Source of the DNA: Candidatus Sumerlaeota bacterium
Lineage (GTDB): Bacteria > CG03 > SLGR01
Reading direction: 5' to 3'
DNA length: 8,188 bases
Assembly: GCA_007136585.1 (NCBI GenBank)
Contig: SLGR01000054.1
Span: 1-8,188 of the forward strand
A program made the position numbers and the translations under genes. Under the pieces are notes generated by a model, which saw only the letters and a list, made by a program, of their open reading frames with translations, was not told the DNA's origin and ran no database searches. Each line of letters opens with the position of its first letter. Within the stretch, counting starts at the first letter, position 1. Shown piece after piece: positions 1 through 8,188 of the stretch.

Positions 1-119
1 ACCACTTACCAATAATTCTGAGTCTTTCATGTCAATTACCATAATACAGACATTATGACTCTTTAGCCCTTTATTTTACAGAGGGCTTATTTCAGGCTCA
101 TCTTGCGTTGGAAAAGACT
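1..119 (+). repeat. Left arm of a perfect 119-bp terminal inverted repeat
   Basis: Positions 1-119 are identical, base for base, to the reverse complement of 8069-8187. Identity stops at 119/120 on this side. The repeat is AT-rich and non-coding as far as can be judged. It contains two short hairpins (40-57 and 65-87). It lies upstream of gltB and ends 5 bp before the TTGACA of the putative gltB promoter. It may be the end of an insertion sequence, a miniature element, or a dispersed intergenic repeat at which a contig terminated. The existence of the repeat is certain; its nature is not. Confidence 0.97.
40..87 (+). other. Two small hairpins inside the terminal repeat
   Basis: CATAAT (40-45) pairs with ATTATG (52-57) across a 6-nt loop. 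AGCCCT (65-70) pairs with AGGGCT (82-87) across an 11-nt loop and is followed by TTATTTC. Because the repeat is duplicated, both hairpins also occur in the right arm at 8131-8148 and 8101-8123. The second resembles a weak intrinsic terminator for transcription entering from outside the window, but its stem is short and the T-tract poor. The hairpins could equally be ordinary structure of a small mobile repeat. Confidence 0.35.
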
Positions 120-124
120 AGCTC

Positions 125-153
125 TTGACAGTCCTCGCTACAATATATACCAT
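125..153 (+). promoter_or_regulatory. Putative sigma70 promoter of gltBD
   Basis: A consensus -35 hexamer TTGACA (125-130) is followed after 17 bp by TACCAT (148-153), a 4-of-6 match to TATAAT. TATACC at 15 bp spacing is an alternative -10. The element is directly inside the left repeat and points into gltB. It predicts a leader of about 85 nt. The -35 is strong and the -10 is weak, so the exact start is uncertain. Confidence 0.4.
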
Positions 154-217
154 TCTTAAAAGAAACAACGATGTTTCACGGCAGAGCCAGCCTTTTAAAA
201 CGCATTCCCGGACAATG

Positions 218-230
218 CTGTTCTGAACAG
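218..230. promoter_or_regulatory. 13-bp palindrome in the gltB leader, possible operator
   Basis: CTGTTCTGAACAG is a perfect inverted repeat (CTGTTC-T-GAACAG) lying 14 bp before the gltB start codon. As DNA it looks like a dimeric regulator site. As RNA it could only form a 5-bp stem with a 3-nt loop near the ribosome-binding region. No specific regulator is recognised. It resembles LexA-type CTGT/ACAG ends, but the spacing is shorter than the E. coli SOS box. Confidence 0.25.
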
Positions 231-244
231 AGTAAAGTAAAAAA

Positions 245-3200
245 ATGCAGAAAAAATTCGGATTATACGACCCGGGCTTCGAACACGGAAGCTGCGGGAC
301 AGGCTTCGTTACCAGTATCAGTGGGCGCGCATCCCATTCAATTATAAAAGACGGATTTAAAATACTTAAAAACCTGGTACACAGGGGCGCCGTGGGAGGT
401 GACCTGGTTTCCGGAGACGGTGCCGGGATGCTCACGTCCCTGCCACATGAATTCTTTTCCTCGCAGGGGTTATCTCTTCCTGAACCAGGTGCTTACGGGG
501 TGGCCTTTCTCTTCCTCCCGCAGGATAAGGCCAGGCGCACCGGTCTGATGAGTTCTTTCAGATCCGTCATCTCCCGCGAGGGGTTTAGCCTCCTGGGAGA
601 GAGAGAGGTTCCTAACTGTCCCGAAATCCTTGGGGATATATCGCGCTCTGCGATGCCTTATATGAAACAGGTCTTTCTCTCTCTTCCGGGAGCAGAGGGG
701 CGAGAACTGGAGTTGAGGCTGTATACAACCCGGCGAGCTGCGGAGAAAAAGGCGCGGACCGGGAATATCCCACCTGAGGATTTTTACATTGCAAGCATGT
801 CTTCAAAAACCGTTGTATATAAAGGAATGTTCTCCGCTCCGCAGTTCCGTGATTTTTATCCTGACCTGGATGAGAGGGAGTTTAAGAGCCACTTTGCAGT
901 TGTCCATCAGAGGTATAGCACGAATACTTTCCCGTCGTGGCCTCTGGCCCAGCCCTTCAGGTACGTGGCCCATAACGGGGAGATAAATACCGTAAGGGGG
1001 AATATTAATTATATGAGAGCCAGGGAAGGGTCCCTTGAGACGCCCCTGTTTAAAGGCGGCGTAGGGAAGGTGCTCCCTGTTTTTGACGAAGGTGGGAGCG
1101 ACTCGGCGGCCTTTGACAGCGTATATGAGCTGCTTTATATGGCGGGGCGTTCTCCGGAACATACGGTAATGATGCTGGTCCCAGAGGCTTTTGGAACAAG
1201 GTATCATATCAGCGCCGATAAGAGAGCTTTCTACGAGTACCACGCCGCTTTCCAGGAGCCCTGGGACGGACCGGCTGCCCTTGTCTTTACCGATGGGGTG
1301 AAAGTTGGTGCGGTTCTGGACAGGAACGGGCTGAGACCGGCAAGGTATATCATAACCCGGAGCGGAAAGATGGTGTTGGCCTCCGAGGCGGGGGTCCTTA
1401 ACATCCCTGCCTCGGATGTGCTTGAGAAAGGGCGCCTTGGCCCGGGGAGAATGATAATAGCCGACCCCGGGGAGAAAAGGGTAAAGAAGGATAACGAGAT
1501 AAAATCAGCCGTTTCCCGGCGCCGCCCGTACAGGCGCTGGCTGGAGGATAACAGGATAGAGCTTAAAGGACTTTTTCAGCCTCCCGGGCGCCCAGACACG
1601 GATGTTTCCACTCTTACGCCAAGACAAAGGGCTTTCGGGTATACTCAGGAGGAACTGGAGAAAGTTATACTTCCAATGGCAGAGAACGCGCAGGAGCCTG
1701 TAGGGTCAATGGGTAACGACGAGGCCCCCGCGGTTCTTTCCGAATCTCCCTCAAGCCTTTTTGAGTATTTCAAGCAGGTCTTCGCGCAGGTTACAAATCC
1801 CCCGATAGACCCTTACAGGGAGAACCTGGTAATGTCCCTTATGAGTTTTATAGGGAGGGAGAGGAACCTCCTGGATGAGACTCCCCGGCACTGCAGGCAG
1901 CTTAAACTTTCCCATCCGGTCCTTACAAACGAGGATATAGATCGACTTTTATCTTTTAGTACTGATGATCTGAGGAGCTGCAGGGCGGAAATGCTTTTCA
2001 ATAGAGACGGCATCGGACTGGAAAAAGCGGTGGAAGAGCTCTGCCTGAGAGTGGAAAAAAGCGTGGATGAAGGGTGCAGTATAGTAATCCTCAGCGACAG
2101 GGGCATAGGTCCCGGGAAGGTTCCGGTCCCTTCCCTGCTGGGTGTAAGCGCTGTGAACTCGTACCTTATATCAAGGCGTAAAAGACACCTGGTGGGTCTT
2201 GTGGTTGAGACAGGCGAGGCAAAAGAGGTAATGGATTTTGCCGCTCTTACAGGTTACGGGGCAAGCGCGGTTAACCCGTATCTTGTTTTTGAGACCCTGG
2301 CCGGGCTTAAGAAAGAGGGGCGGCTGAGCGAGGCGAGCTCTGTAACCGCAGCCGAGAATTACATAACCGCGATCAAGAAGGGGCTTCTTAAGGTTATGTC
2401 CAAGATGGGGGTCTCTACCATAAGGAGCTACAAGGGTGCTCAGATATTTGAGGCGGTGGGGCTTAACGGTGAGTTCCTGGATAGGTACTTCCCCGGAACC
2501 CGGTCGCGTATCGGGGGGATAGGTATAAAAGAGGTGGAGAAGGAGACTCTTCTGAGGCACAGCGCCGCGTTCGGGGCTCCGGGCGATGCCGGATTAGACT
2601 CAGGCGGGAAGTATCATTACAGGAAAAAATCCCGGAAACATCTCCTTACCCCGGAAGCGGTAGTATCGCTTCAGAAAGCGGTAAGGGAGGGCGATTACGG
2701 CGCTTACAGGGAATACTCCGCCCGGATAGATTCCGCTTCCCGGGAGTTATGCACTTTCAGGGGACTCCTCGGTTTCAATGGGGCCAGCCCGGTCCCGCTC
2801 TCGGAGGTGGAGAGCGCGGAAAACATCTTTAAAAGGTTTTTCGCCTCGGCGATGTCCCTTGGAAGCATATCCCCGGAGGCGCATGAGGCTATAGCCGTAG
2901 CTATGAACAGGATAGGGGCCGGAAGTAACTCCGGGGAAGGAGGGGAGGAAGAGAGCAGGTCCCTTCCCCTTCCTTCAGGAGACTCCGCTTCAAGCGCTGT
3001 AAAGCAGGTAGCCTCGGGAAGGTTCGGGGTTACGGCTTTCTATCTTTCAAGCGCCGGAGAAATTCAGATAAAAATGGCCCAGGGGGCCAAACCCGGGGAG
3101 GGGGGGCAGCTTCCGGGACATAAAGTGGACTCCGGTATCGCAAGGGTGAGGCACTCTACCCCGGGTGTTATGCTCATATCCCCTCCTCCTCACCATGATA

Positions 3201-4744
3201 TATACTCAATAGAGGACCTATCCCAACTCATATACGACCTTAACACCGTAAATCCCGAGGCCAGGGTTTCCGTCAAGCTTGTAAGCGAGTCCGGCGTGGG
3301 AACCGTCGCCGCCGGGGTTGCCAAGGCCGGGGCCGATATGGTTCTTATAAGCGGCGCCGACGGAGGGACAGGGGCTGCTCCCCTTTCTTCCATAAAGCAC
3401 GCCGGGATACCCTGGGAGCTGGGACTCTCCGAGACGCAGCAGACACTGGTGCTTAACGACCTGAGAGAAAAGATACGGGTTCAGGTTGACGGGCAGATGC
3501 GGACCGGGCGCGACGTAGTCATAGCCGCGCTTCTCGGGGCCGAGGAGTTCGGGTTCGGTACGGTGGTCCTGGTTGCCCTTGGGTGCGTTATGGCAAGGAA
3601 ATGCCACCAGAATACCTGTCCCGTGGGTGTGGCCACCCAGGATATCCGTCTTCGCAGGAGGTTCAGGGGGCGCCCCGAAGACGTGGTTAATTACTTTACC
3701 TTCCTTGCGCGGGAGGTCAGGGAGATAATGGCCTCGCTAGGTTTCAGAAGTTTTGATGAGATGGTCGGAAAGACGGAGAGGCTTGAGTTCCTGAAGGCGG
3801 ATGCTCACTGGAAAGCCGCGGGGCTGGATCTTTCGGATATGCTGGCGGCTCCTAATTACTCCGGATCAAGGCGGAGCCTTCCCCGCAAGAGGGGGGACCG
3901 CCCCGGGAAACTGGATAAAAAAATATTAAAATCCGCCGCCGGGACAGTTAATAACGGCGATCCGGCGGAGCTGGAGTTTCCCATAAAAAACCCGGACCGG
4001 TCCGTGGGGGCGCTACTTAGCGGCAGGATAGCGGGTAAATACGGCTCCGGAGGCCTTCCGGATAATACTCTAAAGGTAAGGTTTACCGGGACCGCGGGGC
4101 AGAGTTTCGGGGCCTTTCTGGCAAAAGGGGTAACCTTTTTACTGGAAGGGGAGACCAATGATTACCTTGCCAAAGGGCTTTCGGGAGGAATAATAGCGGT
4201 CTATCCTGAAAGAAAAGCTGTTTTCCGCGCCCGGAACAATATAATAGCCGGAAACGTTTGCCTCTTCGGGGCTACCGGGGGGGAGGTTTACATAAGAGGC
4301 CTGGCAGGGGAAAGGTTTGCGGTAAGAAACAGCGGCGCTCTCGCGGTGGTGGAGGGGGTAGGTGACCACGGCTGTGAGTATATGACGGGAGGTTGCGTGG
4401 TTGTCCTGGGAAGGACAGGGGTTAACTTTGCCGCCGGAATGAGCGGCGGGATAGCGTATGTAATGGATGAGGACCAGCTTTTTGATACGCGCTGCAACCT
4501 TGAGATGGTTGACCTTGAGCCGGTTTCTCTGAAAGCTGACAGGGATAAACTTGCCTCTCTTATAAAGAAACATGCGGATATCACCGGGAGCCGGTACGCG
4601 CTGGAGGTTCTTAAATACAGGGATGAGATGCTAGCTAAATTCGTAAAGGTAATACCTTCGGATTATCGGAAAGCTCTTGAGAGAATAAGGGAGGCCAGCC
4701 CGGCGGCCTCGGACCGTCCCGGTATGACGGAGGAGGTATACTGA
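245..4744 (+). CDS. gltB: Glutamate synthase (NADPH), large (alpha) subunit
   Basis: This is the large GOGAT subunit. It hydrolyses glutamine, channels ammonia inward and forms glutamate from 2-oxoglutarate in the cytoplasm, with electrons from GltD. It has 1499 residues, normal for the family. The N-terminal class-II glutamine amidotransferase has its nucleophile at C17, after a 16-residue propeptide typically removed in this family. R223, H243-N-G-E246 and G283-G-S-D-S287 complete that site. A central domain (about 470-760) joins it to the FMN synthase domain (about 820-1190). That domain shows GEGGE at 897-901, K1011, SGADGGTG at 1036-1043, and the 3Fe-4S cysteines C1114, C1120 and C1125 (C-x5-C-x4-C). 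The C-terminal GXGXG beta-helix domain spans about 1240-1440. The start is bounded by an in-frame TAA at 233-235; the Shine-Dalgarno is poor. The residue after C17-G18 is T where V is usual. No frameshift is seen and all catalytic motifs are intact. Confidence 0.98.
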   Translation: MQKKFGLYDPGFEHGSCGTGFVTSISGRASHSIIKDGFKILKNLVHRGAVGGDLVSGDGAGMLTSLPHEFFSSQGLSLPEPGAYGVAFLFLPQDKARRTGLMSSFRSVISREGFSLLGEREVPNCPEILGDISRSAMPYMKQVFLSLPGAEGRELELRLYTTRRAAEKKARTGNIPPEDFYIASMSSKTVVYKGMFSAPQFRDFYPDLDEREFKSHFAVVHQRYSTNTFPSWPLAQPFRYVAHNGEINTVRGNINYMRAREGSLETPLFKGGVGKVLPVFDEGGSDSAAFDSVYELLYMAGRSPEHTVMMLVPEAFGTRYHISADKRAFYEYHAAFQEPWDGPAALVFTDGVKVGAVLDRNGLRPARYIITRSGKMVLASEAGVLNIPASDVLEKGRLGPGRMIIADPGEKRVKKDNEIKSAVSRRRPYRRWLEDNRIELKGLFQPPGRPDTDVSTLTPRQRAFGYTQEELEKVILPMAENAQEPVGSMGNDEAPAVLSESPSSLFEYFKQVFAQVTNPPIDPYRENLVMSLMSFIGRERNLLDETPRHCRQLKLSHPVLTNEDIDRLLSFSTDDLRSCRAEMLFNRDGIGLEKAVEELCLRVEKSVDEGCSIVILSDRGIGPGKVPVPSLLGVSAVNSYLISRRKRHLVGLVVETGEAKEVMDFAALTGYGASAVNPYLVFETLAGLKKEGRLSEASSVTAAENYITAIKKGLLKVMSKMGVSTIRSYKGAQIFEAVGLNGEFLDRYFPGTRSRIGGIGIKEVEKETLLRHSAAFGAPGDAGLDSGGKYHYRKKSRKHLLTPEAVVSLQKAVREGDYGAYREYSARIDSASRELCTFRGLLGFNGASPVPLSEVESAENIFKRFFASAMSLGSISPEAHEAIAVAMNRIGAGSNSGEGGEEESRSLPLPSGDSASSAVKQVASGRFGVTAFYLSSAGEIQIKMAQGAKPGEGGQLPGHKVDSGIARVRHSTPGVMLISPPPHHDIYSIEDLSQLIYDLNTVNPEARVSVKLVSESGVGTVAAGVAKAGADMVLISGADGGTGAAPLSSIKHAGIPWELGLSETQQTLVLNDLREKIRVQVDGQMRTGRDVVIAALLGAEEFGFGTVVLVALGCVMARKCHQNTCPVGVATQDIRLRRRFRGRPEDVVNYFTFLAREVREIMASLGFRSFDEMVGKTERLEFLKADAHWKAAGLDLSDMLAAPNYSGSRRSLPRKRGDRPGKLDKKILKSAAGTVNNGDPAELEFPIKNPDRSVGALLSGRIAGKYGSGGLPDNTLKVRFTGTAGQSFGAFLAKGVTFLLEGETNDYLAKGLSGGIIAVYPERKAVFRARNNIIAGNVCLFGATGGEVYIRGLAGERFAVRNSGALAVVEGVGDHGCEYMTGGCVVVLGRTGVNFAAGMSGGIAYVMDEDQLFDTRCNLEMVDLEPVSLKADRDKLASLIKKHADITGSRYALEVLKYRDEMLAKFVKVIPSDYRKALERIREASPAASDRPGMTEEVY
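4729..4736 (+). promoter_or_regulatory. Strong ribosome-binding site of gltD inside gltB
   Basis: GGAGGAGG lies 7 nt before the gltD ATG, within the last codons of gltB. With the TGATG stop/start overlap at 4742-4746 it indicates translational coupling, which suits two subunits of one complex. It contrasts with the poor Shine-Dalgarno sequences before gltB and the SGNH gene. Confidence 0.8.
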
Positions 4745-6171
4745 TGAGCGAAGAAGGCGGCGATTTTCTGAGTTGCGGGCGCCTGGAACCGGAACCCCGT
4801 CCTGTGGAAGAGAGGCTGGGTGACTGGAAGCAGGTATACAGAGATCTTCCGGAGGATAAGGTCTCGGAACAGGCCGGCCGGTGTCTGGATTGCGGGATAC
4901 CTTTCTGTCACGCCCTGGGGTGCCCTCTTTCAAATATCATACCTGAAGTTAACAGGTTTGTATCCGGGGGGAAATGGCACCTGGCCTATGAACGCCTTAC
5001 AATGACAAACCCGTTTCCCGAACTCACAGGTCGGATATGCCCCGCACCCTGCGAAGCGGCCTGCACCCTGGCCATAAGCGGTGAGGCGGTATCAATAAAA
5101 GAGATAGAGAAGACTGTAGGGGATAAAGGGCTGGAGCGGGGATGGGCCGCCGGGTCTGTCTCAGTAGAGGAAACAGGAAAGACCGCGGCGGTTATAGGTT
5201 CCGGTCCGGCCGGGCTTGCCGCGGCCCATACCCTGAGAAAGCGCGGGTTTTCCGTAACGGTATTTGAGAAATCTGCCGAGCCGGGGGGGATACTCAGGTT
5301 CGGGGTCCCGGATTTCAAACTGGAAAAACATATAATCGCCCGCAGGGTTGAGATACTCAGGGAGTCAGGGGTGCGTTTTGAGACCGAGGTTGACGCGGGG
5401 GAGGATATCTCTGCTTCCCACCTTAGGAAAAAATTCAATCTTATACTTCTTACGGTAGGGGCGGGTCAGCCGCGCGACCTGGATATACCGGGCAGGGAAC
5501 TGGAGGGTATATATTTCGCGATGGAGTATCTCTCCGGGGTCAATGAGCTTCTCTGCGGTCTGAGAGAGCCTCAGGAGACGGTAAACGCCAAAGGGAAGAA
5601 CGTCCTTGTTCTGGGAGGGGGGGATACGGGCTCGGACTGTATAGGGACCGCCCTGCGCCAGGGGGCGGCAAAGGTTTATCAGTTTGAGATAATGCCCAGG
5701 CCCGCGGAGTGGGGGGAGAGCTGGAACCCGCGCTGGCCGGAGTACCCTGTGATTTTGCGGCACTCATCTTCTCAACGGGAGGGGGCCGAGAGGGAATGGG
5801 GGGTGCTTACCGAAAAGTTCAGGGGAAAGGACGGGAAGCTCACTGGGGCGGAGTTTTCCAGGCTCAGATATGAGAGCTCTTCCGGGAAGCCGCCACGGAG
5901 GATCCCGGGAAGCCGGTTTACCCTTGATGTTGATATGGTTCTTCTTGCCCTGGGTTTTGTGCATACCCGGCATACCCGGCTGCTGAAGGAGCTGGGGGTG
6001 GAGTATGATGAGAAGGGGAATATAAGGACAACCGGGTATATGACCGGGGTCCCCGGAGTTTTTGCCGCGGGTGACGCTGTCTCGGGTGCCTCCCTGGCCG
6101 TAAGGGCCATATTCGCGGGGGCTGAGGCCGCCTCCGCTATGGCAGAGTACTCCCCCCCTGACGCAGGCTGA
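4744..6171 (+). CDS. gltD: Glutamate synthase (NADPH), small (beta) subunit
   Basis: This is the FAD-dependent subunit that takes electrons from NAD(P)H and passes them through 4Fe-4S clusters to GltB. It has 475 residues, normal for the family. The N-terminal Fe-S region holds C47-x2-C50-x4-C55-x4-C60 and then C99-x3-C103-x3-C107 (CPAPCEAAC). The FAD-binding Rossmann fold has GSGPAG at 152-157, followed by the acidic residue of VFEK and by GGILRFGVP. The NADPH-binding fold has GGGDTG at 291-296. The C-terminal flavin motif GVFAAGD is present. The start is fixed by the 1-base overlap with gltB and the GGAGGAGG site. Two small oddities: the last spacing of the first cysteine set is 4, where E. 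coli-type GltD has 3, and there is a tandem HTRHTR at 407-412. Cofactor preference for NADPH over NADH is assumed from the family. Related FeS-flavoprotein subunits exist, but adjacency to gltB makes gltD the best call. Confidence 0.97.
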   Translation: MSEEGGDFLSCGRLEPEPRPVEERLGDWKQVYRDLPEDKVSEQAGRCLDCGIPFCHALGCPLSNIIPEVNRFVSGGKWHLAYERLTMTNPFPELTGRICPAPCEAACTLAISGEAVSIKEIEKTVGDKGLERGWAAGSVSVEETGKTAAVIGSGPAGLAAAHTLRKRGFSVTVFEKSAEPGGILRFGVPDFKLEKHIIARRVEILRESGVRFETEVDAGEDISASHLRKKFNLILLTVGAGQPRDLDIPGRELEGIYFAMEYLSGVNELLCGLREPQETVNAKGKNVLVLGGGDTGSDCIGTALRQGAAKVYQFEIMPRPAEWGESWNPRWPEYPVILRHSSSQREGAEREWGVLTEKFRGKDGKLTGAEFSRLRYESSSGKPPRRIPGSRFTLDVDMVLLALGFVHTRHTRLLKELGVEYDEKGNIRTTGYMTGVPGVFAAGDAVSGASLAVRAIFAGAEAASAMAEYSPPDAG

Positions 6172-6194
6172 CCGGGCAACTTGAGCCGGACCCT

Positions 6195-6220
6195 GACTTT
6201 ATTGTAAAAGTCTCTGTTTT
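6195..6220 (+). terminator. Weak intrinsic terminator after gltD
   Basis: GACTTT (6195-6200) pairs with AAAGTC (6207-6212) over a 6-nt loop, followed by TCTGTTTT. It sits 24 bp after the gltD stop, where transcripts from gltBD and the convergent SGNH gene meet. The stem is AT-rich and only 6 bp, so termination may be inefficient. The rest of the 100-bp gap (6172-6271) shows no gene. Confidence 0.4.
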
Positions 6221-6271
6221 AACTGAAATAAAATCCGGGGAAGTTAGCTGCAACGCTTTCTTAAATCTTCC

Positions 6272-8002
6272 TTAATCGTTATACCCTTCTGATGCTGTCA
6301 GAAGTATATCCTTAACAGGTATGCTGAAATCACACAGTTGCGCAGCGCGGTTCAGGTTCTTTTCCGCTTCTTCGGTTTCCCCTTTGTTTAAGTGCGCGAG
6401 CGATTTTAAAAAATAAGTTTCCCAGTATTCAGGGTTTCTCTTTAAGGACTCCCCGAAGAATTCGAGAGCCAACTTTAGATCTCCCATCCTCCTGGCCGCT
6501 TCTCCCGCAGATGTCAGGACTTTATGCCAGTTGGGTTCAATTTGAGGGGAAACATGTTCTGACCATGGATTATGCAAAAACCAATCTGCTATTTCGTCAG
6601 GGTGTTTATTCAGAAGTAAACTAATGCAAGCATATGTATTGTATCTTATGTGGTTCTTGAAATAAAAAACACTCTGACGGGAAGAGTGTCTTTTCGTGCT
6701 GTTGAAAATACCCATTTTCAGAAACGGTCTCCTTGCTTTTGCATTCTTCAGGCGTTCCATTAATTCATCTTGCGGAAGTTCAGGAATGAGCCTGTTTTGT
6801 TTTACTGGCGGGATGCCGGATATTTCAAACTCATTGATCTTTCTTACAACTGTGTCAGCAATTACGGTGTAGTATGGAAAGTACCAGTGGCAGTAATCAT
6901 AAAAAAAATCTTTTCCAGTGAGTCCTGTTTGGGAGAGTTTCTCAAATAATTTATAGACGTCCACTAAGAGAGTGTCGTATCTTTCTGCTATTTCGCGTAT
7001 TATTTTGTTTATATCCGGAGTAGTCATGGCTGAGTTTTTGGGGACAGTTTTTAAATACGCTTCGCGGGCCTTCTCATATAACCCCAGTTCCTTTAAGGCG
7101 TTGCCTTTAAGGAACCATAAGAAAGTGTCGCCGGCGGGGTCTGTTGTATTCAGTAAATCTTCATATCTCCCTTCTGAATATAAAATAAAAGGAAGAAACT
7201 GTTCTTCTCTCTCTATAAGATAAGAACTGCTATAAGGCGGGTAATCCGCGTAATGTATGGGGAGCGTGAAAACCGCAAAAGGCAGATCTCTGGATGTAAA
7301 AATTCTTGCTATTTCATTGTAATCCTGCTTAAAATGTTCAGTGCCGTAATTGCCGTTTGTGTTGCCCGAGTATATTCTTTCAATAAATATGCGGAAAACC
7401 CAGGACCTGGCATAAAGATGTCTTATCAGAGCGCGGCTGCGAAGGATCCTCCACTTTTTTATGCTTAAGTAGGCGAAAGCATAAATGTTATTGCCCATAA
7501 GAACCATCACAAAATCAGGGTTAAGGCGCATAATATCCCTGGCGACAGAGAGGATATGCGAGCTAGTATACATGCCAGCGCCGGTGTTTATAATATTTAC
7601 TTTGTGTTCCGGAAATCTTGCTTCAAAAATAGTTCTTATTTCTTCGTTTATACGAAAACTTTGCGCTACCGATTCGCCGATAATGATTATACGCACTTCG
7701 TTACTGCCTTTTTTAGCTTTTACGGAAAGTTCCGGGTACGAAGAAGAAAAATCCTTCCGGTTAAATTCATAAGTAATTATTCCATCTTTGCGTGTTCTTC
7801 TCATTAACGGAACAGCTATCGGTTCATATATCTGATGGAAATAATGCCATCCGGAGGTCTGGTCCTTAAGCGATTCCCGGGCATTGCCCCAAGTTAATAC
7901 AAGGGCAGTTTCCAGGATAAGGCCAGCCGCCGCAAAACCGGCTGTAATTAGAGCGGTTCTATATAAAAGCTTTCTTATTTTTAATCCGGAATATAATTTC
8001 AT
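6272..8002 (-). CDS. Membrane-anchored SGNH/GDSL-type hydrolase with TPR repeats
   Basis: This is a 576-residue protein with one N-terminal hydrophobic segment (about 14-36) after a basic start, so it is probably anchored in the inner membrane with its body in the periplasm. All four SGNH blocks can be seen: block I as GES with nucleophile S111 (usual form GDS), block II G141/G143, block III GNN (N171/N172), and block V D369-x-x-H372. The segment between blocks III and V is about 200 residues and includes a TPR-like helical hairpin (about 293-326). Two more TPR-like repeats fall at about 493-560. The family covers esterases and O-acetyl transfer or removal on glycans; the substrate here cannot be read from the sequence. 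The start is firm, because in-frame TAG and TGA lie just upstream, but no Shine-Dalgarno is seen. The gene is much lower in GC than gltBD and converges on them, so a functional link is unlikely. Confidence 0.82.
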   Translation of the reverse strand: MKLYSGLKIRKLLYRTALITAGFAAAGLILETALVLTWGNARESLKDQTSGWHYFHQIYEPIAVPLMRRTRKDGIITYEFNRKDFSSSYPELSVKAKKGSNEVRIIIIGESVAQSFRINEEIRTIFEARFPEHKVNIINTGAGMYTSSHILSVARDIMRLNPDFVMVLMGNNIYAFAYLSIKKWRILRSRALIRHLYARSWVFRIFIERIYSGNTNGNYGTEHFKQDYNEIARIFTSRDLPFAVFTLPIHYADYPPYSSSYLIEREEQFLPFILYSEGRYEDLLNTTDPAGDTFLWFLKGNALKELGLYEKAREAYLKTVPKNSAMTTPDINKIIREIAERYDTLLVDVYKLFEKLSQTGLTGKDFFYDYCHWYFPYYTVIADTVVRKINEFEISGIPPVKQNRLIPELPQDELMERLKNAKARRPFLKMGIFNSTKRHSSRQSVFYFKNHIRYNTYACISLLLNKHPDEIADWFLHNPWSEHVSPQIEPNWHKVLTSAGEAARRMGDLKLALEFFGESLKRNPEYWETYFLKSLAHLNKGETEEAEKNLNRAAQLCDFSIPVKDILLTASEGYND

Positions 8003-8016
8003 ATTATGCTATCAGC

Positions 8017-8030
8017 AGTAAAAGTTTACT
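8017..8030. promoter_or_regulatory. Operator-like palindrome at the predicted transcription start
   Basis: On the minus strand AGTAAACTTTTACT has 6-bp inverted arms (AGTAAA / TTTACT) around CT. It lies immediately after the -10 box and overlaps the predicted start point of the SGNH gene, where a repressor site would be effective. The composition is AT-rich, so chance is possible, and no regulator gene is present. Confidence 0.25.
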
Positions 8031-8035
8031 ATTAA

Positions 8036-8063
8036 ATTATAATTATAAACTTACCCATGTCAA
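8036..8063 (-). promoter_or_regulatory. Near-consensus sigma70 promoter of the SGNH-TPR gene
   Basis: On the minus strand the -35 is TTGACA (8058-8063) and the -10 is TATAAT (8036-8041), both perfect consensus, with a 16-bp spacer (one shorter than optimal). A second TATAAT at 8042-8047 is too close to the -35. The predicted leader is about 27 nt. The -35 lies 5 bp inside the end of the right-hand 119-bp repeat. This promoter should be strong in the absence of repression. Confidence 0.7.
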
Positions 8064-8184
8064 TTTTGAGTCTTTTCCAACGCAAGATGAGCCTGAAATA
8101 AGCCCTCTGTAAAATAAAGGGCTAAAGAGTCATAATGTCTGTATTATGGTAATTGACATGAAAGACTCAGAATTATTGGTAAGT
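8049..8184. repeat. MITE-like structure with imperfect terminal inverted repeats
   Basis: The right-hand repeat region begins ACTTACC (8049-8055), then after 6 bp AATTTTGAGTCTTT (8062-8075). It ends with the inverse arrangement AAAGACTCAGAATT (8161-8174), then after 3 bp GGTAAGT (8178-8184). The 14-bp blocks pair with one mismatch and the 7-bp blocks exactly. A further exact pair, CATGTCAATT (8056-8065) and AATTGACATG (8151-8160), is nested among them. A ~136-bp element with its own inverted ends would suit a miniature mobile element. The left copy keeps only TGTCAA and AGTCTTTT of the inner end. No target-site duplication is evident. Confidence 0.35.
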
Positions 8185-8187
8185 GGT
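8069..8187 (-). repeat. Right arm of the perfect 119-bp terminal inverted repeat
   Basis: The reverse complement of this stretch equals 1-119 with no mismatch, and one more base (8188) follows it. It lies upstream of the minus-strand SGNH gene, so relative to its downstream gene it has the same orientation as the left arm has to gltB. Identity ends at 8069. The bases inside it are TTTTG (8064-8068) and then the -35 box, against the unrelated GAGCT on the corresponding strand of the left copy. Confidence 0.97.
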
Positions 8188-8188
8188 G

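Follow-up and report, generated by a model that had tools for sequence, protein, structure and literature searches.

An insertion sequence group whose left ends stand at a fixed register from host sigma-70-type promoters

In one group of insertion sequences (IS), the left ends keep a constant spacing to sigma-70-type promoters of the host, as shown statistically across genomes of several phyla. Two copies of such an element close the two ends of the contig described here, and the explanation that we regard as very probable, taken as a whole, joins three parts: an assembly that stopped inside the left ends of two IS copies, the promoter register of these ends, and a transposase that, as we infer, aims for promoters. 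That relatives repeat the same exact distance upstream of promoters suggests such aiming. On balance we think it likely that a widespread, undescribed IS group, found at least in Elusimicrobiota and Proteobacteria, has a lone transposase that selects sigma-70 promoters, probably via promoter-bound RNA polymerase, and inserts in a fixed orientation immediately upstream of the -35 box, its cuts staggered by 5 bp.

The contig and its end repeats

The window, by which we mean the whole stretch of 8,188 nucleotides analysed, is the complete contig G000:C159 of an Elusimicrobiota MAG of 257 contigs that is 88% complete; a same-order relative of this genome is the public record PWOI01000210.1 (Elusimicrobia MAG CSSed10_371m). 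The inverted end repeats reported in the initial annotation are real: positions 1-119 and the reverse complement of 8069-8187 are identical at 119 of 119 positions, for which a chance match is out of the question, and base 8188 is one extra base of the right IS copy. A repeat finder stretches the pair to 130 nt at 96% identity, because TTGACA stands 5 bp outside the repeat in both flanks. The features of the window are as follows.

1-119, minus strand: left end of IS copy A, 119 bp visible, equal to the reverse complement of 8069-8187; the same IS end lies at a contig end of the MAG G004
1-42, minus strand: first 14 codons (MVIDMKDSELLVSG) of the copy A transposase, which reads leftward off the contig; MVIDM as in the Polaromonas relative
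91-119, minus strand: left terminal inverted repeat of copy A, AGTCTTTTCCAACGCAAGATGAGCCTGAA, whose right-end counterpart, AGTCTTTTCCAATCCAAAGATGAGCCTGAA, stands at contig ends in C55, C72, C80 and C174
120-124, no strand: putative 5-bp target duplication of copy A, AGCTC, after the 5-bp duplications in relatives; the partner flank is absent from the assembly
125-153, plus strand: predicted gltB promoter, TTGACA-17-TACCAT, 10/12 in the promoter scan; the -35 box starts 5 bp outside the IS end
245-4744, plus strand: gltB, glutamate synthase large subunit, 1499 aa (Pfam GATase_2, Glu_syn_central, Glu_synthase, GXGXG)
4744-6171, plus strand: gltD, glutamate synthase small subunit, 475 aa (NCBIfam TIGR01317 above cut-off; orthologues in relatives at 51-58%)
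6272-8002, minus strand: protein of 576 aa with an SGNH/GDSL-like N-terminal region and TPR repeats (Pfam TPR, weak Lipase_GDSL_2 match)
8036-8063, minus strand: predicted promoter of the SGNH gene, TTGACA-16-TATAAT, 12/12 in the promoter scan; the -35 box starts 5 bp outside the IS end
8064-8068, no strand: 5-bp target duplication of copy B, TTTTG, the same 5 bp as directly outside the IS right end on C80
8069-8188, plus strand: left end of IS copy B, 120 bp visible, its transposase reading rightward off the contig (repeat identity, contig end)
8146-8188, plus strand: start of the copy B transposase gene, by comparison with the transposases of relatives

The SGNH/TPR gene has 41% GC against 55-58% for gltBD, finds only weak relatives in the order, and has no counterpart after gltBD in relatives. 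An inverted repeat, CATAAT...ATTATG, at 8131-8148 and in inverse copy at 40-57, overlaps the transposase start codon; repeats of this type return with altered sequence in the G001 and G007 copies and possibly limit translation. Rfam gave no match, and the RNA folding of the 120-bp IS end is unremarkable (z -1.2).

Counting copies of the repeat, as the initial annotation had proposed, shows that the full 119 bp occurs only twice in the genome's own assembly, both times in this window. Four further contigs of the genome, C55, C72, C80 and C174, carry its outer 29-30 bp at their ends in the form of an imperfect terminal inverted repeat, beyond which these contig ends differ in sequence from those of the window. 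Two of the meanings that had been offered for the repeats hold together: they are the left ends of two inverted, outward-reading copies of a mobile element, an IS, and the contig stopped in a repeat, the assembly having broken 119-120 bp into the IS at both ends. The visible length had also been suspected to be a product of assembly, and this is borne out by seven contig-end IS tails of 119, 120, 120, 120, 121, 95 and 96 bp; that all end 95-121 bp inside the IS indicates an assembly break in a repeat. MEGAHIT's k = 119 as the cause of the 119-bp length is unproven.

One of these tails, 121 bp at a contig end of G004, a MAG from the same order but a different family (G004:C133, 6196-6316; L028/L066), is identical over its first 120 bp to the IS end of the window. 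The GC content of this contig is 40%, that of a further contig in the MAG 46%, and either a recent transfer between lineages or a mis-binned contig would account for the tail. The soda-lake study that we take, from the isolate name, as the source of the G004 record used k of 21-131 in steps of 10 (PMC6146748). A further near-match, 119 bp from the end of C57, was rejected, as it lies inside an IS21 istB gene unrelated to the IS of the window; the end of that contig (G000:C57, 1-683; L060) falls within this IS21-type gene, near a gene for a membrane-anchored protein.

The insertion sequence and its relatives

The left IS end consists of the 29-bp terminal inverted repeat, a leader and the first 14 transposase codons, of which those for MVIDM match the start of the transposase of a Polaromonas relative exactly. 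The right end, read from C55, C72, C80 and C174, carries the 30-bp repeat and encodes the end of a transposase, ...DNEMAEIVQKKRDELFATIRKAA*, similar to the C-terminus of the relative in G238. The genome shows two left and four right IS ends, a full copy being neither assembled nor binned; with one left and one right end joined as a pair, these amount to at least five insertions. The length and the transposase of the window's own IS can be estimated from relatives. The intact ones measure about 1.4-1.5 kb; their terminal inverted repeats, 29-30 bp long and imperfect, start with AGTCTTTTCC or a similar sequence, and their transposase, about 410-430 aa long, has an rve/DDE core. The intact relatives include a 1521-bp element with a 415-aa open frame in G238 and one of 1406 bp and 432 aa on a Polaromonas plasmid; further relatives, some of them partial, lie in 22 more genomes of the proteobacterial class of G238. 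A decayed 1197-bp copy in a genome of the same family (G001:C132:1235-2431) served as a probe only.

The general features of an IS are present. Terminal inverted repeats occur at both ends (left 29 bp, right 30 bp) in the window's own genome and in relatives, and the transposase spans the element in intact relatives (G238 and others), the own genome showing its two termini only. Among the 12 elements with both ends visible, five have an exact 5-bp target duplication (GGGTG, GTGTG, CCAAT, GCTTT and GTGAA); the G001 element has a near duplication, with four of five bases, and decay or rearrangement perhaps explains the elements without an exact one. The match of the transposase to the Pfam rve integrase core is just below the cut-off, and its catalytic spacing, DNG...E, reads as D-35-E.

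Several other features of these elements were observed. In proteobacterial relatives the terminal repeat of the left end recurs once more at an internal position, some 35 bp further in, in the manner of extra transposase binding sites (L034 806-869, L035 1781-1850, L117 1406-1470, L126 1408-1470); the window's element has one copy only. Short relics with similar terminal repeats, some with a ACATGAGAGAGGTTCAACCTCTCTCATGT hairpin just inside, are found in G005 (L020) and G007 (L019, L023-L026), and may derive from this IS group by deletion or be MITE-like members of it. On the Polaromonas plasmid (L035 1281-1835), the left end of the related IS directly adjoins the end of a TniQ-family gene. 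A relaxed terminal-repeat pattern returned 20 stretches, mostly by chance, with true relatives in L093, L098 and L099. The viral contig collection gave no match to the exact terminal repeats or to the G238 transposase, phage records gave no match, and a sequence search of solved structures found nothing.

The promoter register

Both IS copies of the window stand exactly 5 bp, the length of the duplication, from the TTGACA -35 box of an outward promoter. Promoters were predicted here and in all other flanks by consensus match, and in the consensus scan the two IS-adjacent sites rank as the best sigma-70-like sites of the window, at 12/12 and 10/12, the latter tied with two others. In the G001 copy TTGACA stands in the same arrangement on the right-end side; on C55, TTGACT-17-TATAAG lies beside the IS, upstream of a triosephosphate isomerase gene, and in G004 TAGACA-17-TATACT lies beside the IS end.

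The hypothesis came from the Elusimicrobiota copies, and 23 left-end flanks drawn later from the proteobacterial class of G238 formed a held-out set, for which the -35 register was fixed beforehand and the -10 offset was derived from the usual 16-18-bp spacer. In the full set of 31 left-end flanks, which come from several phyla, matches to TATAAT of at least 5/6 fall at offsets 27-30 in 15, as compared with 0-4 in any other window of four offsets, and TTGACA matches peak at offset 5 (at least 5/6 in six of the 31). A joint -35/-10 score of at least 8/12 at the register was reached by 13 of the 31, where the null gave a mean of 0.23 and a maximum of 3 in 1000 resamplings. In the held-out set a strong -10 (at least 5/6) stands at the predicted offset in 10 of 23 left ends (shuffle mean 0.19, maximum 3 in 5000), and in none of the 13 right ends of the proteobacterial set. 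The left end faces the promoter in Proteobacteria, where this bias is shown; in Elusimicrobiota either end can. The conserved columns are the T and G of the -35 box and TA...T of the -10 box, the spacer is not conserved, and comparison of flank with flank finds them mutually dissimilar. About a third of the left ends (9/31) lack even a 4/6 -10 match at the register.

Alternative explanations

The initial annotation had also raised a composite transposon, in which two inverted IS copies would carry gltBD and the SGNH gene as one unit. Two identical inverted copies do bracket three genes, of which the SGNH gene has a GC content below that of gltBD, but the reading is unsupported and we consider it very improbable. 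The TTTTG outside copy B is also the sequence outside the IS right end on C80, and with two left and four right flanks such a 5-bp match would arise by chance in 1.1-2.2% of cases, so that the copy B flank and C80 probably represent both sides of a single, simple insertion with its own duplication. A composite transposon would need a reverse-complement pair among its outer flanks, and the four right-end flanks, TTTTC, TACCG, TTTTG and TATTT, contain none; the outer flank of copy A is absent from the assembly. Moreover, gltD orthologues occur throughout the order, with the best (58%) in the same family, and the gltBD of relatives sits among other genes. Taken together, the pairing with C80, the flanks and the distribution of gltBD lead us to read gltBD as native and the segment as ordinary chromosome between two IS insertions, and MAG contigs bounded by IS copies should not be taken for transposons by default.

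Short-read MAG contigs routinely end in IS copies, and insertion into intergenic DNA is commonly tolerated; the window might thus represent an ordinary, untargeted IS at two copies of which the assembly broke, the adjacent promoters marking survivors in harmless intergenic DNA. This is the most serious of the alternatives, although we hold it to be unlikely, since the -35 and -10 boxes hold their register to within about one base in many genera whose flanks are unrelated, since proteobacterial right ends lack it, and since both the joint-score and the held-out tests strongly disfavour it. Part of the pattern could come from selection against insertions at other places, but a single-base register would hardly arise in this way. 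Still less credible, by a wide distance, is that the flanking TTGACA belongs to the element, as a built-in outward promoter, rather than to the target. Hybrid promoters made from IS-borne -35 boxes are common in other families, but here the 5 bp between IS and -35 box vary by copy and, in complete elements, recur as a duplicate beyond the opposite IS end; the -35 box is missing on that opposite side (the C80 flank reads TTTTG CAAGAA), and the spacers differ. We give the least credence of all to an assembly artefact in which one window end is a mis-assembled copy of the other. Wrong resolution of the assembly graph can yield identical ends on one contig, yet the sequences just inside the two ends differ completely, each flank agrees with the IS boundary and the promoter register found consistently, and a contig of another MAG is closed by the same IS end.

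Proposed mechanism and its significance

Under the explanation that we prefer, targeted insertion beside promoters, the transposase would aim for them most likely by engaging promoter-bound RNA polymerase or promoter DNA, and would make cuts staggered by 5 bp immediately upstream of the -35 box. At the observed register the 5-bp duplication borders directly on the -35 hexamer, and the -10 box stands about 17 bp beyond it. Promoter-bound RNA polymerase is tentatively preferred as the guide, rather than plain recognition of TTGACA, because the -10 and -35 boxes are both in register and the -35 box is often weak, as it is in natural promoters. Insertion at about -41 to -37 would spare the core promoter and remove upstream activating sequence. 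With the core promoter surviving, gltBD and the SGNH gene are probably still transcribed, without sequences upstream of about -41, and the element would gain a low-cost intergenic landing site.

Bacterial IS elements are mostly loose in their choice of target, precise targeting being known for dif sites (ISAjo2), REP sequences and the Tn7 attachment site. If the proposed targeting is true, it would account for the spread of such elements with little damage; regulation would be rewired, with upstream activator sites cut off and the core promoter spared, and IS ends would mark active promoters in uncultured genomes.

Comparison with known systems

The open-licence literature searched gave no matching description of promoter-targeting IS elements, and the group may already be named in ISfinder. 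In behaviour, the closest described elements are those of the ISAjo2 group (IS1202 family). They measure about 1.5 kb, have 24-26-bp imperfect terminal repeats, a DDE transposase of 441-457 aa and 5-bp duplications, and always insert in a fixed orientation, with 5 bp between them and the XerC side of dif/pdif (PMC10132070). The elements described here share with this group their size, one large DDE transposase, a 5-bp geometry from a fixed motif, a duplication (5 bp) that matches its 3-5 bp, and extra repeats near the ends, here at the left end of proteobacterial relatives. They differ, the ISAjo2 group being compared by description, in that the target is a sigma-70 promoter-like site at a fixed register and not dif, with unrelated flanks instead of one dif-like locus, and in that their termini begin 5'-AGTC, AGCA, AGAA or ACTC, unlike the 5'-TGT outer ends of the IS1202 family. 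Because of the other target and the absence of 5'-TGT ends, we do not file them as IS1202 members.

In the IS481 family, which provides the best NCBIfam match of the transposase and shares the rve integrase core and the D-35-E pair, duplications are mostly 6 bp (PMC10045372), in contrast to the 5 bp found here, and the NCBIfam IS481 transposase model scored 64.8 and 54.7 bits, below its cut-off of 224. An AlphaFold model of the transposase, in which the TnsB-like fold of the IS1202 family, with its beta barrel and C-terminal domain, was sought, was built on a shallow two-row alignment and has a mean pLDDT of 43. ISNCY elements such as ISLbi1 have an rve-type transposase of similar size, with 25-33% identity in tblastn, but the terminal repeats of ISLbi1 (ATCTACTC...) differ and the two have no termini in common. 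The IS is IS481/IS1202-like, with different termini.

As an analogy only, the yeast elements Ty1 and Ty3 insert at RNA polymerase III genes, their integrase being guided just upstream of transcribed genes (reviewed in PMC5911963); unlike the IS described here, they are eukaryotic retrotransposons and involve another polymerase. If our reading is correct, a promoter-reading IS would be the bacterial counterpart of Ty1/Ty3 targeting.
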